Assembly: GCA_019636735.1 (NCBI GenBank)
Contig: JAHBWY010000001.1
Span: 124,001-188,000, forward strand
Source of the DNA: Phycisphaeraceae bacterium
GTDB taxonomy: Bacteria; Planctomycetota; Phycisphaerae; Phycisphaerales; SM1A02
DNA length: 64,000 nt
Direction: 5' to 3'
The notes beneath the pieces are model-generated. The model was not told where the DNA came from, did not search any database, and saw only the letters and a list, made by a program, of their open reading frames with translations. A program made the translations under genes and the position numbers. This document shows positions 45,947 through 49,660 of this stretch, piece by piece (position 1 is the first letter of the stretch; every line of letters begins with the position of its first letter).

Positions 45947-47185
45947 TCACGAGTCGAGTGGCTGCGGGCCCACCACCGCGAGCGTTTCAGCCTTCGACCA
46001 GCGATCGGCCATCGGCCCGCGGACATAGGCGTTGAGTGACTCGAAGTCGACCGCGTCGACCTCGGCGGCCAGGTCCTTCAGCGACCGAGGTCGCCCCACG
46101 CGAACGATGTCGGCCGCCATGGCGCTGGCCCGTGCCGACATGCTTTCGCCCTGCATGACAAGGTGACTCTTGAATCCCACGACGGCGCGGGCGAACTCAT
46201 CGGGGGTCACGCCGTCGGCGAGGCGTCGAATCTCCGCTCGAATCTGGCCCAGGGTCTGACGCGCCCGCTCGTGGGTGCTCCCGGCGTAGATCGAGGTGAT
46301 GCCGAAGTCGCGACCGAGTGTGGCGCTCGAGCCCACGGAGTAGCAGAGCCCTCGCTTCTCACGAACCTCGGTGAAGAGTCGGCTGCTCGTGTCACCGCCG
46401 AAGATGCGGACGGCCAATCGATGCCGCAGTGACTCTGGCGCGGATTCGACCGGTGCCCAAAGCCCGAAGGCGAGGTGGGTCTGCGCCGTTGCAGATTGCA
46501 CATGCACGCTGCCTCCGAGCGGCGGCGCCGCCACACGGGGTTCTTCGCACGAGCCCTCCCATCCGTTGATGAGAGGCTCCAGAACTCCGAGAACCTCGTC
46601 AATTCGGATGCGGCCCGCGACGGCAAGAACTGAGCCAGCAGGCTTGGCCCTCCTGAGCCACTCGCCCCTGAGGCGCTCCACCGTCGCTGACTGAATCGCG
46701 TCTGCGTGACCGTAGCCCGAGCGGTTGAAGGGGGCGGGGAAGTGGCGCTCCGAGGCGCGGATGAAGGCGACATGCTGCGGCTCGTCGTCGAGACCGGCCA
46801 GCGCCTGGAGGGCCAGCCGCTTCACAGGTTCGAGGTGCTCAGGGTCGAAGCGTGGCGCAGTGACCATCGGCGCCACCAGCTTCAAGGTCTCGCCGAGATG
46901 CTGCGAGAGCATCGTCGAGTTCAACAGAAAGTGGAACTTGGTCGTCCTCGAGTGACGGTCGGCGCCCAAGCGATCGAACGCCTCGCTGTGCTCACGGCTG
47001 CTCATGGAGCCGACGCCGCGAAGGAGGTACTCCGCGATGAGGGCGGAATCGCCGTCACCGGCGGCGCCCTCGAGGTCATAGGAGTTGCCGCCCGGCAAAA
47101 GCCATGCGAGGGAGCAACTCTGGACTCCATCGAAGGTCTCGACGGCTACCGTCATGCCGTTCCTGAGCGTGGTGGTCTGGATCAT
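45947..47185 (-). CDS. M16 peptidase-family protein, non-catalytic R/Y-type subunit
   Basis: 412 residues from ATG 47185, preceded by GGAGG. Two M16 domains are visible, LRNGMTVAVETFDGVQSCSL at the start and GGSVHVQSATAQTHLAFGLW opening the second half. The zinc motif HxxEH expected after GDGDSAL is replaced by IAEYLLRG, so there is no metal site. The R/Y pair region GGDTSSRLFTEVREKRGLCY is kept. In heterodimeric M16B peptidases one subunit carries HxxEH and the partner R/Y; this looks like the latter. The start overlaps the dapB stop by 4 nt. No HxxEH partner is in the window. Confidence 0.85.
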   Translation of the reverse strand: MIQTTTLRNGMTVAVETFDGVQSCSLAWLLPGGNSYDLEGAAGDGDSALIAEYLLRGVGSMSSREHSEAFDRLGADRHSRTTKFHFLLNSTMLSQHLGETLKLVAPMVTAPRFDPEHLEPVKRLALQALAGLDDEPQHVAFIRASERHFPAPFNRSGYGHADAIQSATVERLRGEWLRRAKPAGSVLAVAGRIRIDEVLGVLEPLINGWEGSCEEPRVAAPPLGGSVHVQSATAQTHLAFGLWAPVESAPESLRHRLAVRIFGGDTSSRLFTEVREKRGLCYSVGSSATLGRDFGITSIYAGSTHERARQTLGQIRAEIRRLADGVTPDEFARAVVGFKSHLVMQGESMSARASAMAADIVRVGRPRSLKDLAAEVDAVDFESLNAYVRGPMADRWSKAETLAVVGPQPLDS

Positions 47186-47976
47186 GCGAATCCTCCGGGG
47201 CCGTGGGAGTGCTTCAACTCGCTGATCCACTCTTCAACGGTGTGCCACCCGGCAGGCCGGTGGACGAGCCACGAGGAGAGCCGCAGCGCGCCTCGCGCAA
47301 AGAGGTCGCGGCTGGTCGCCGCATGGCGAATCTCGATCACCTCGCCGGGACCGGCGAAGGTCACGGTGTGCTCTCCGATGACATCCCCCAGCCTCTGGGC
47401 ATGGATTCGTTCGGGCGAAATCGGGCGTCCGGCACCGTCGAGAGACTCAGCCAGGGCCTTGGCTGTGCCGGAAGGCGCGTCGAGCTTGTGCCGATGGTGG
47501 CGTTCGACGATCTCGATGTCGAACTCCGACCCCAGGAGACGCGCCGCCTCGGCGACCAGTCGACGAGTCACCGCCACCCCGAGCGAGGTGTTCGGCGCCA
47601 CCATGACCGGCACCGAGCGTGCGGCGTCGCGCAACATGGAGAGTGTCTCCGGGGAGAGTGCGGTGGTTCCGACCAGGAGCGCTGATCGTTTCGTAACTGC
47701 CGCTCTCGCCGCAACCTGCGCTCCGCGATCGGAACTGAAGTCGATGATCGCGTCGGCGCTGTCGGATGAGCCGATCCAGCGTTCCGAGTCACCTTGATCA
47801 AGCTCGGCGACGATCGTGAATGACCGCGTCTCTGCCGCGCACGCGACGATGCGCCGACCCATGCGACCCTTCGCGCCATGCACCACAATGCGAAGCGCCG
47901 GGCGCGGTGTTGCATCACCACCGACATCTGATGGCGACGCGCGCTCAGCGTGCATCGAGACCCCCAACAGGGACAT
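47182..47976 (-). CDS. dapB: 4-hydroxy-tetrahydrodipicolinate reductase
   Basis: 264 residues from ATG 47976; ATG 47955 is also possible. Reduces the dipicolinate intermediate with NAD(P)H in lysine and diaminopimelate synthesis. The Rossmann motif VVHGAKGRMGRR opens the N domain; DAIIDFSSDRGAQ, LLVGTTALSP and VMVAPNTSLGV follow; and the catalytic signature EIVERHHRHKLDAPSGTAKA is intact, with the His pair and Lys. The end has LSSWLVHRPAGWHTVEEWI in place of the usual tail. Operon with the M16 gene through an ATGA overlap. Confidence 0.95.
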   Translation of the reverse strand: MSLLGVSMHAERASPSDVGGDATPRPALRIVVHGAKGRMGRRIVACAAETRSFTIVAELDQGDSERWIGSSDSADAIIDFSSDRGAQVAARAAVTKRSALLVGTTALSPETLSMLRDAARSVPVMVAPNTSLGVAVTRRLVAEAARLLGSEFDIEIVERHHRHKLDAPSGTAKALAESLDGAGRPISPERIHAQRLGDVIGEHTVTFAGPGEVIEIRHAATSRDLFARGALRLSSWLVHRPAGWHTVEEWISELKHSHGPGGFA

Positions 47977-48047
47977 CCTCACCGAATTCTCTGAAGTCGA
48001 CTTGCATTCGTGGCCGATAAGGGTACAACTCCATGTGGGAGTCTGCT

Positions 48048-48096
48048 TTCGTTACGCGGGCAGCACTCCTTCACTCCGACACCTACGCGTAACGAA
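48048..48096 (+). promoter_or_regulatory. 11-bp inverted repeat in the leader of the Lys-rich protein gene
   Basis: TTCGTTACGCG (48048-48058) and CGCGTAACGAA (48086-48096) are perfect arms around a 27-nt spacer. The right arm abuts and partly covers AAGGGAG (48095-48101), the ribosome site of the 28-residue gene. It could be an operator or an RNA hairpin that hides the ribosome site. Confidence 0.6.
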
Positions 48097-48109
48097 GGGA
48101 GCCTGGCAC

Positions 48110-48196
48110 ATGGCAGCTCGCAAGAAGGCGAAGAAGAAGGTCGCCAAGAAGGCTGCGAAGAAGACTTCGAAGAAGAAGAAGTCCTCTCGCAAGTAA
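48110..48196 (+). CDS. 28-residue Lys-rich basic protein
   Basis: MAARKKAKKKVAKKAAKKTS, then KKKKSSRK: 15 or more Lys among 28 residues, in the AKK repeat style of histone H1-like C-terminal tails (HU/Hc1-type basic proteins). ATG 48110 has AAGGGAG 8 nt upstream, and a very strong terminator follows, so the short gene is a real transcription unit. Nucleic-acid binding is likely from composition; no structured domain. Too short for many gene finders. Confidence 0.7.
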   Translation: MAARKKAKKKVAKKAAKKTSKKKKSSRK

Positions 48197-48218
48197 TCTT
48201 CTCCGCAGTGAACGAACC

Positions 48219-48257
48219 GCCGCCGGAGCCGGCTATGTCGGCTCCGGCGGCTTTTTT
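48219..48257 (+). terminator. Strong intrinsic terminator
   Basis: Perfect 13-bp stem GCCGCCGGAGCCG (48219-48231 with 48239-48251), 7-nt loop, then TTTTTT. It follows the Lys-rich gene by 22 bp. Confidence 0.95.
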
Positions 48258-48362
48258 GCACCATGACATTTCGCCCTGCGCGCATTGCACCGCCACAGGC
48301 CCGTGACGCAGGTCTCCACGCTGATTGGTGACGAGCACTTGGCGGCGGGTCCTCGGTGACCG

Positions 48363-48368
48363 TAGGAT
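48363..48368 (+). promoter_or_regulatory. Candidate -10 element (TAGGAT) for the ferredoxin gene
   Basis: GTAGGATTC with TAGGAT ending 13 nt before ATG 48382. No Shine-Dalgarno sequence is obvious in the short leader. Confidence 0.3.
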
Positions 48369-48381
48369 TCGCCGCTCCCCC

Positions 48382-48648
48382 ATGGCCCACATCATTGCCG
48401 AACCCTGCATCGGAACCAAGGACACCGCGTGCGTCGAGGTGTGCCCGGTCGATTGCATTCATCCCACCAAGAGCGACGGCGATCACGGTGAGAGCAATCA
48501 GCTCTTCATCGACCCGGACACCTGCATTGACTGCGGCCTCTGCGTGGACGAGTGCCCTGTTCACGCCATCTTCCCGCAGGATGACCTGCCCGAGGAGTGG
48601 CAGAAGTACATCCAGATCAACGCGGACTACTACAAGAGCAAGGCCTGA
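48382..48648 (+). CDS. 7Fe ferredoxin (FdxA type)
   Basis: 88 residues. Small cytoplasmic electron carrier. The N-terminal cluster motif reads CIGTKDTACVEVCPVDC: the second Cys of a normal 8Fe protein is Thr, giving C-x7-C-x3-C-P as in [3Fe-4S] sites. The second motif CIDCGLCVDECP binds [4Fe-4S]. Sequence order and length match the FdxA family (MAHIIAEPCIG; CPVHAIFPQDDLPEEW). It has its own short-leader promoter candidate and is flanked by unrelated genes. Confidence 0.93.
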   Translation: MAHIIAEPCIGTKDTACVEVCPVDCIHPTKSDGDHGESNQLFIDPDTCIDCGLCVDECPVHAIFPQDDLPEEWQKYIQINADYYKSKA

Positions 48649-48686: not shown

Positions 48687-49094
48687 TCAGCGATCGTCGT
48701 TCGGAGCTTCCCGGTCAACGCCGCTCGGTGCCGTGGGCTTCTCTGTCCAATCGGGAACATCGCGCCCGAGTTGGAGCTCGCTGGGCATCGTCTTGCGGTA
48801 GCCGAGCTTCCGGATGATTTCGAGCACATCCGTCCACGAGGGGAAGGTCTTGTGATTGACGCGCTTGAAGGCATCGATCGCGAGCAGGAAGAGGAACTGC
48901 TCGCGGTTCATCTCCCCCTCTTCCGCGCTCTTCACGAAGTCCGTGAGGCGGCGCCCGGGCCCACGGCGGCGCTCGAGGTTGGTCGAACTGGGCGCTTCGA
49001 GTTGCCGACGGTCGAGACCCGACCGACGATCAACCACGCTCTTCCAGCGCTCCTGCTCCGATTGCGGATCCGGTTTCCCTTCGGCGTGACTCAT
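48687..49094 (-). CDS. Conserved-looking cytoplasmic protein of unknown function
   Basis: 135 residues from ATG 49094. The first half is highly charged (WKSVVDRRSGLDRRQLE, LERRRGPGRRLTDFVKSAEE); the second is helical with REQFLFLLAIDAFKRVNHKT and FPSWTDVLEIIRKLGYRKTM, which looks like a small winged-helix or SAM-like unit. No family named with confidence. The arginine-rich linker could bind nucleic acid. Divergent from the membrane-protein gene. Confidence 0.65.
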   Translation of the reverse strand: MSHAEGKPDPQSEQERWKSVVDRRSGLDRRQLEAPSSTNLERRRGPGRRLTDFVKSAEEGEMNREQFLFLLAIDAFKRVNHKTFPSWTDVLEIIRKLGYRKTMPSELQLGRDVPDWTEKPTAPSGVDREAPNDDR

Positions 49095-49105
49095 GCGTGA
49101 AGCAC

Positions 49106-49115
49106 ACTGTAGCAT
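49106..49115. promoter_or_regulatory. Palindromic bidirectional -10 candidate
   Basis: ACTGTAGCAT reads TAGCAT rightward and TACAGT leftward; the leftward box is 11 nt before ATG 49094, the rightward 29 nt before GTG 49145. GTGACT at 49086-49091 may serve as a rightward -35 with an 18-bp spacer. Confidence 0.4.
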
Positions 49116-49144
49116 CTGAATGGAAACCATCCGAAGAACGCGGC

Positions 49145-49660
49145 GTGCTCTGGTCCAAGACATTCATCCTGATTGCAGTCGGCGCTGGCGCGATTCTCCT
49201 TGGCCGAGGGGCGATCGCCTTCGTGCTGGGTTGGGCCTTTCCGGGTCTGGGTCACTGGTGGCTCGGTGAGCGGCGGCGCGGTCTTCTGGTGGGGGCTGGC
49301 GTGCTCGGGCTGTTTCTGGGCGGCCTCCTGATCGGCGGGATCGACGCGGTCGATCAACGGGAGGATGGACCGTGGTTTCTCGCGCAAGCCTGGAACGGTC
49401 CAATCGCCTTCGTCGCCGATTTTGCGAATGAGCGTCTGCTTCAGCAGGACCCGCCGCGCGTCGGCGAGTTGATCGCGAGTCCCGGACCGGCTCTGGCACC
49501 CGGCGGACCACCGAGCGAGGTGAAGATCAACATCTACAAGGGCGTGGGTGTCGTGAACGACATCGGCATGCTCTACATCGCCCTCGGCGGACTCATGAAC
49601 CTGGTCGCCATGCTCGACGCCGCCTCTCGAGCGCGTCGCCTTGCCGAGGAGGAGGCATGA
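49145..49660 (+). CDS. Integral membrane protein of unknown function
   Basis: 171 residues from GTG 49145; GTG 49097 would overlap the promoter and is less likely. Two or three hydrophobic helices at the N-terminus (FILIAVGAGAILLGRGAIAF, RRGLLVGAGVLGLFLGGLL) surround the motif FPGLGHWWLGERRRG, which resembles the P-G-x-G-x-x-Y-x-G-x-x-x-x-G motif of TM2/DUF5683-like membrane families. Then comes a periplasmic loop and a final helix (YIALGGLMNLVAMLDAAS). Next gene overlaps by ATGA, so the two are an operon. Confidence 0.7.
   Translation: MLWSKTFILIAVGAGAILLGRGAIAFVLGWAFPGLGHWWLGERRRGLLVGAGVLGLFLGGLLIGGIDAVDQREDGPWFLAQAWNGPIAFVADFANERLLQQDPPRVGELIASPGPALAPGGPPSEVKINIYKGVGVVNDIGMLYIALGGLMNLVAMLDAASRARRLAEEEA

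Follow-up and report, generated by a model that had tools for sequence, protein, structure and literature searches.

In the 64,000-nucleotide stretch of DNA analyzed here (the window), a gene encoding a 28-amino-acid Lys-rich protein is preceded by a structured mRNA leader. Comparison with the leaders of relatives showed that this structure is a conserved H-type pseudoknot in which helix P1 has at least 8 pairs, helix P2 has 7–12 pairs and loop 3 includes the sequence CUCCGAC. Judging from its position and conservation, we lean toward the view that the leader pseudoknot controls translation of the Lys-rich protein. The features of the region are as follows.

47182–47982, − strand: dapB, divergent from the Lys-rich gene
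47992–48019, + strand: promoter-like bipartite element TGAAG-N17-CCGATA, from the order-wide leader comparison
48024–48029, + strand: TACAAC, possible −10 or initiation region, from 62 aligned leaders
48038–48046, + strand: pseudoknot helix P1, 5′ arm GGAGTCTGC, which pairs with 48060–48069
48048–48058, + strand: pseudoknot helix P2, 5′ arm TTCGTTACGCG, left arm of the inverted repeat, with the core GTTACGC at 48051–48057
48060–48069, + strand: pseudoknot helix P1, 3′ arm, with C48064 bulged, from the arm-swap controls
48074–48080, + strand: CTCCGAC in loop 3, between the P1 3′ arm and the P2 3′ arm
48086–48096, + strand: pseudoknot helix P2, 3′ arm CGCGTAACGAA, right arm of the inverted repeat, running into the Shine-Dalgarno sequence
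48094–48101, + strand: Shine-Dalgarno sequence (SD) GAAGGGAG, read from the sequence
48110–48196, + strand: gene for the 28-amino-acid Lys-rich protein, with ATG at 48110 and stop at 48194–48196
48219–48257, + strand: intrinsic terminator, with a stem of 15 pairs and a loop of 3 (48219–48251) followed by T6
48382–48648, + strand: FdxA-like ferredoxin, a conserved neighbor with two Fer4 stretches and scores below the cut-offs of the FdxA models

The first-pass annotation had described a 28-residue Lys-rich gene with its own ribosome site, an 11-bp inverted repeat touching that site and a strong 13-bp terminator. The gene and its SD are both present in the window, as is the repeat, whose arms (48048–48058 and 48086–48096) overlap the SD at 48094–48101. 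The terminator does follow the ORF, but its stem has 15 pairs and not 13. The same annotation had taken the repeat for a hairpin leader. This simple reading was rejected because a helix that had gone unnoticed, P1, interleaves with the inverted repeat; the repeat is one of the two helices, P2, in an H-type pseudoknot.

A conserved H-type pseudoknot in the leader

None of 200 dinucleotide shuffles of the 221-nt unit folds as well as the unit itself (z −4.55), and the best pseudoknot of the window leader scores above 40 of 40 shuffles of its own sequence. The best-pseudoknot search was applied to 64 distinct leaders with 40 shuffles each. A GTTACGC-like arm is found in 29 of them; 17 of these, including the window leader, beat all 40 shuffles, and the remaining 12 were reached by 1 to 13 of the 40. 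Among the 35 leaders without such an arm, only those of two genomes (G005 and G059) beat all 40 shuffles, with helices placed differently, and those of G048 and G071, also with a different placement, were each reached once in 40 shuffles. Since just 2 of these 35 leaders exceed their shuffles, the gene does not generally require the knot. CP050848 (L141), a complete genome, carries the Lys-rich gene with a leader that lacks this pseudoknot. Conservation across relatives means that the unit found in the window is not a chance arrangement.

Covariation was analyzed in an alignment of the 29 leaders, which were selected by their GTTACGC-like arm; in the 7-pair core of P2, 98.5% of the cells are paired in this set, while slid registers reach 40% or less. 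Double-sided changes are found in three of the seven pairs, a number reached by 2 of 500 shuffles, and the P2 covariation score is higher than those of all 500 shuffles and of all slid registers. The count of further pair types in P2 was no higher than in shuffles, as 200 of 500 reached the same number. Helix P1 is little conserved in sequence, and for this reason its own arms were scored against arms swapped between genomes. Own arms scored 549.5 in the 29 leaders (mean of swapped arms 334.2, maximum of 300 swaps 407.5), 701.1 in 34 leaders when bulges were allowed (mean 407.1, maximum of 100 swaps 460.6) and 1613.8 in 88 distinct leaders (mean 855.3, maximum of 300 swaps 956.3). These controls ignore relatedness, and since swaps among close relatives raise the control score, the test is conservative in that respect. 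Together, the P1 swap controls and the compensatory changes in P2 indicate that both interleaved helices are under selection as RNA.

Conservation of the gene, its leader and its flanking signals

The closest named relatives of the ferredoxin encoded downstream share about 76–83% identity with it and are mostly labeled Phycisphaerales, Phycisphaerae or Planctomycetota, and on this basis the genome is assigned to Phycisphaerales (Planctomycetota). The ferredoxin was searched in 101 genomes; a strong match was taken in 87, where the upstream region was inspected, and 14 genomes were left out, three without a match and 11 with a weak or paralogue-level best match (E 3e-26 or worse). On the ferredoxin strand, 65 of the 87 genomes have a Lys-rich ORF upstream of it, at a distance of 500 nt or less in 63. 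In the other 22 genomes, no Lys-rich ORF was detected in 19 and the contig was too short in three. The 19 include G027, where the unit is complete but lies in inverted orientation about 1 kb away from the ferredoxin, and G076, where the ORF is reduced to 7 codons. The first-pass annotation had asked whether the ORF is conserved among close relatives, and the inverted repeat in relatives. The ORF proved to be kept across much of the order (the 63 of 87 genomes with the gene beside the ferredoxin) and P2 is kept with compensatory changes in the 29 leaders. The idea of a unit with its own controlled expression is thus well supported by a conserved ORF and a conserved RNA-structure leader. Among 80 named loci, a Lys-rich ORF is present in 21 and absent from 56, three being too short, and none of those labeled Actinomycetota, Acidobacteriota or Chloroflexi has one. 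Three bins labeled Kuenenia, Chitinophaga and Singulisphaera carry it, and these labels are taken to be wrong.

Of 72 loci whose surroundings were examined, 46 have dapB in the stretch that flanks the Lys-rich gene. In the window dapB is divergent, so that two promoters share one intergenic region. The proximity of a lysine-making enzyme to a lysine sink may be a coincidence. Two unnamed proteins encoded directly after the ferredoxin, at 48687–49163 (− strand) and 49097–49660 (+ strand), recur beside the ferredoxin in many loci; the former has only a sub-threshold match to HHH_6.

A covariance model with P2 as its sole structure was built from leaders that all contain CTCCGAC. Searched against the same 101 genomes, it gave matches with an E of 0.1 or less in 32, and in 24 of these E was below 1e-4. 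Five genomes outside the training set (G003, G012, G027, G033 and G076) had E values below 1e-4; all five matches precede a Lys-rich start, and both P1 and P2 are preserved in their leaders, with novel pair substitutions such as GGTACGC/GCGTACC and GCACGC/GCGTGC. Six of the eight weaker matches were inspected and look like chance, because the ORFs behind three of them (G030, G036 and G093) are not rich in Lys and CTCCGAC is missing at the site in the other three (G043, G045 and G055). When 181 genomes of the family were searched at E 0.001, 98 were positive, 95 with a single copy and three with two copies (101 matches); the positives comprise 58 of the 104 good-quality family genomes and 17 of the 45 genera. 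A Lys-rich ORF, defined by an ATG 18–56 nt after CTCCGAC or a near variant and by at least three Lys in total with at least two in the first nine residues, was found behind the leader in 101 of 101 matches. Strong matches were confined to part of the window's own family, and in the window's own genome the next match after the window leader had an E of 5.9. On 71 loci the model matched 19, and the Lys-rich ORF went undetected only at L136 and L202, which are apparently one 41,233-base contig of G076. Two leader copies were seen in each of G170 (L339/L379), G166 (L340/L378) and G184 (L365/L380). Five of these six copies lie 0.5 kb or less from a contig end, which suggests assembly duplication.

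Rfam 15 gave no match at the gathering score in eight loci, and within 47800–48500 of the window the only matches below it were sX6 (20 bits against 40), mir-4659 and Xoo2. A description of a CTCCGAC pseudoknot leader was not found in searches of openly licensed papers. In a 2010 survey of structured RNAs, Planctomycetes are named once, in connection with a different motif (PMC2864571).

The sequence CTCCGAC is invariant in the training alignment (29/29) and in the model matches (101/101), although its presence in all matches is partly built in because the model was trained on leaders containing it. The order-wide figure of 55 of 64 leaders, which includes families without the window-type pseudoknot, is not built in by the model. 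CTCCGAC is also present in most relatives that fall outside the GTTACGC set, whose best pseudoknots are mostly no better than shuffles. Because the sequence is retained across the order without the knot, the knot probably arose within one lineage as an addition to a more ancient leader signal. The SD of the 101 model matches is GGAG in 78, GGAA in 19 and GGAT in 4, and its GGA is separated from the 7-bp P2 core by 4–11 nt. The CTCC portion could pair with the GGAG of the SD. An obligatory anti-SD role for CTCC was unsupported, since the 23 of 101 leaders with GGAA or GGAT retain CTCCGAC without change; given this constancy, we consider it likelier that some factor reads CUCCGAC than that CTCC serves as an obligatory anti-SD switch. 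Taken as a candidate general leader signature, a pattern of CTCCGAC, SD and ATG has 14 matches in the window's own genome, a count made without a composition-matched control. In four leaders (L119, L129, L096 and L236), from one genome each of genera g33 and g55 and from two named loci, CTCCGAC is tandemly duplicated in loop 3 (CTCCGACACTCCGAC).

Upstream of the pseudoknot, a CGAT-type (or CGAAG) element, chosen by script, lies 60–125 nt before the ATG in 62 of the 64 distinct order-wide leaders. Roughly 18 nt farther upstream lies T(S)AAG, which played no part in the selection and is conserved, with A at −20 in 97% and T at −23 in 94% of cases (n = 62). In the TACAAC region of the 62 aligned leaders, T is found at +9 in 84%, A at +10 in 77% and A at +13 in 85%. 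The sequence CCGATANNNNTACAAC has a single exact match in the window's own genome, at the TACAAC region of the window. The TSAAG-N17-CCGATA element persists in most order-wide leaders even where TACAAC is lost. Its CCGATA or CCGATAA portion resembles the −10 sequence of FliA (sigma-28). The TSAAG-N17-CCGATA pattern was matched in 24 of 25 genomes, a count in which the places were partly read and the control had a different composition, and which therefore speaks neither for nor against a sigma-28 promoter. Binding of sigma-28 at Chlamydia hctB is among the observations of one study (PMC12282069). Six leaders of family f5 (L086, L059, L117, L200, L080 and L210) have no GTTACGC pseudoknot, and 6 of 6 carry a −35-like TTGAC box upstream of the start. 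At the other end of the unit, a terminator follows 67 of the 88 closed family ORFs with enough sequence (rate in shuffled sequences 0.007); order-wide, it was found in 31 of 65 loci where about one was expected.

The Lys-rich protein

The product of the ORF at 48110–48196 is MAARKKAKKKVAKKAAKKTSKKKKSSRK, in which 16 of the 28 residues are Lys or Arg. The 90 closed ORFs found behind leader-model matches in the family genomes encode 7–161 amino acids with a Lys plus Arg content of 48–65%; 80 of them span 16–36 codons and only that of G076 is shorter than 16. The ORF of G102, which belongs to the same genus as G076, has 27 codons. Lys-rich homologues with a visible start (n = 54, among the 87 genomes) range from 18 to 172 amino acids. 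Proteins so short and simple are easily overlooked by gene finders; the leader RNA backs the reality of the gene and offers a handle for finding relatives.

No family model in Pfam or NCBIfam matched the window protein at E up to 1, and a comparison with PDB chains at E up to 10 likewise gave nothing; no ribosomal-protein family matched it or the homologues tested. Models of Hc2 and of Burkholderia H1-like proteins were matched by one of the four homologues tested, that of 172 amino acids, always below threshold: 19.5 bits against a cut-off of 40 for PF07382, 25.6 against 80 for NF038053 and 8.8 against 135 for NF038052. The remaining three homologues gave nothing at E up to 10. Any Lys/Ala-rich repeat might produce a match as weak as this one. 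Assignment of the window protein to Hc2 (PF07382, NF038052 or NF038053) was rejected on the curated cut-offs, which it does not reach; the protein looks like a free H1 tail and is not to be called an Hc2. It is minimal and presumably disordered, resembles an isolated histone-H1 tail and probably binds DNA or RNA. A possible role as a nucleoid or RNA-binding factor, suggested when the gene was first read, fits the Lys/Arg composition and the sub-threshold match of the homologue to the Hc2 and H1-like models. A search for paralogues in the window's own genome with a 140-amino-acid homologue as the query gave no match, and this search also missed the window gene itself.

Possible control of translation and related systems

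A pseudoknot beside the SD would govern access of the ribosome. A factor that reads CUCCGAC could stabilize the pseudoknot, and initiation would then be blocked or trapped; a free pseudoknot would be melted and the Lys-rich protein made. The most economical candidate for this factor would be the Lys-rich protein itself, which would exert negative feedback when the sticky polycation is in excess, in the manner of T4 gp32. The amount of a nucleic-acid-binding, Lys-rich peptide would have to be limited in some such way. In the version that we favor, a pseudoknot with a CUCCGAC loop would meter a free-standing H1-tail-like polycation by direct autogenous feedback and would constitute an undescribed class of RNA; we regard this full version as possible rather than probable, and its autogenous step is rated clearly lower than control of translation by the leader. 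One genome argues against it, G076, which keeps the leader and the terminator with only a 7-codon ORF. A 28-residue low-complexity peptide is also an unusual candidate for specific recognition of RNA.

Other explanations were considered for the same leader. Small translational riboswitches share a characteristic layout: a compact H-type pseudoknot, with a conserved loop, adjacent to the SD. The leader has this layout, and its CTCCGAC is present in every one of the 101 model matches, as would be expected if a small molecule or ion were bound around CUCCGAC in loop 3 to control translation of the Lys-rich protein. However, all 101 matches at E 0.001 precede a Lys-rich ORF and none a metabolic gene, and there were no matches to Rfam riboswitches, and we find a sensor of this type unlikely. 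We give somewhat less credence to a constitutive 5′ stabilizer or translation enhancer that makes a small mRNA long-lived and senses nothing. The 5′ knot and the 3′ terminator stem (the 67 of 88 ORFs above) would shield a short message at both ends, but plain hairpins would do as well, and the conserved 7-nt loop and the GTTACGC core suggest recognition.

The reduced unit of G076, in which the leader, SD and terminator surround the 7-codon MAAKKKK (L246:1587–1610), raises the question of whether the structured transcript works in trans and the peptide is secondary, and the size of most closed family ORFs, just 16–36 codons in 80 of 90, agrees with such a dual-function RNA. Yet G076 accounts for one of those 90 ORFs, the other 89 are Lys-rich frames of 16–161 amino acids and relatives elsewhere reach 172, which leaves this explanation improbable. 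The succession of a short ORF with Lys codons, a terminator and a same-strand gene, all adjoining the lysine biosynthesis gene dapB, would suit a leader peptide whose terminator attenuates the downstream ferredoxin. We consider this attenuator very improbable: dapB is divergent in the window and hence is not in the transcript of the Lys-rich ORF, the gene downstream is a ferredoxin and not part of a same-strand lysine-biosynthesis operon, homologues are as long as 172 amino acids, and the inverted unit of G027 is intact about 1 kb from the ferredoxin. Finally, GTTACGC...GCGTAAC is a perfect dyad and could be a DNA operator for a dimeric repressor, but some 30 nt separate its arms, which interleave with another helix that covaries, and we give this reading the least credence of all.

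If the Lys-rich protein does regulate its own message through the pseudoknot, the message would act as a sensor of how much of a chromatin- or polyanion-binding peptide is free, and an autogenous circuit like that of gene 32 would have evolved for an H1-like protein of a bacterial chromosome; in one species, that with the 7-codon ORF, the unit would be reduced almost to the regulatory RNA alone. Several Planctomycetota have condensed nucleoids. Such feedback would couple production of a minimal H1-like protein to sensing by the mRNA that encodes it, and would offer a concrete entry into DNA organization in Planctomycetota. A study of Gemmata records no recognized histone homologues and two HU-type proteins (PMC3440768).

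The closest parallel to the proposed feedback is T4 gene 32, whose product, when in excess over its DNA target, is described as repressing its own message through a leader pseudoknot (PMC3014915). Like the window gene, gene 32 has an H-type pseudoknot upstream of the SD, and gp32 is a nucleic-acid-binding protein, as summarized in the same source (PMC3014915). The two proteins are unrelated, and the unstructured A+U-rich spacer between the T4 knot and its SD has no counterpart in the window type, in which the P2 core is 4–11 nt from the SD core (101 matches). The translational operator of E. coli rpsO likewise includes a pseudoknot in the leader region and is under autogenous control, according to that account (PMC3014915), but rpsO encodes the ribosomal protein S15, while the window protein matches no ribosomal-protein family. 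On the protein side, Hc2-like proteins are described as built of short Lys-rich repeats whose number varies, and with it their length (PMC2848022); the Lys-rich repeats and large length variation of chlamydial Hc2 (HctB) and Bordetella BpH1 are also features of the Lys-rich family reported here, although Hc2 proteins have 165–237 amino acids and the window protein has 28. The C-terminal tail of P. aeruginosa AlgP is, like the window protein, a low-complexity basic sequence resembling an H1 tail; in the description cited, its KPAA repeats are joined to an N-terminal domain (PMC9239181), whereas the window protein is free-standing and proline-free.
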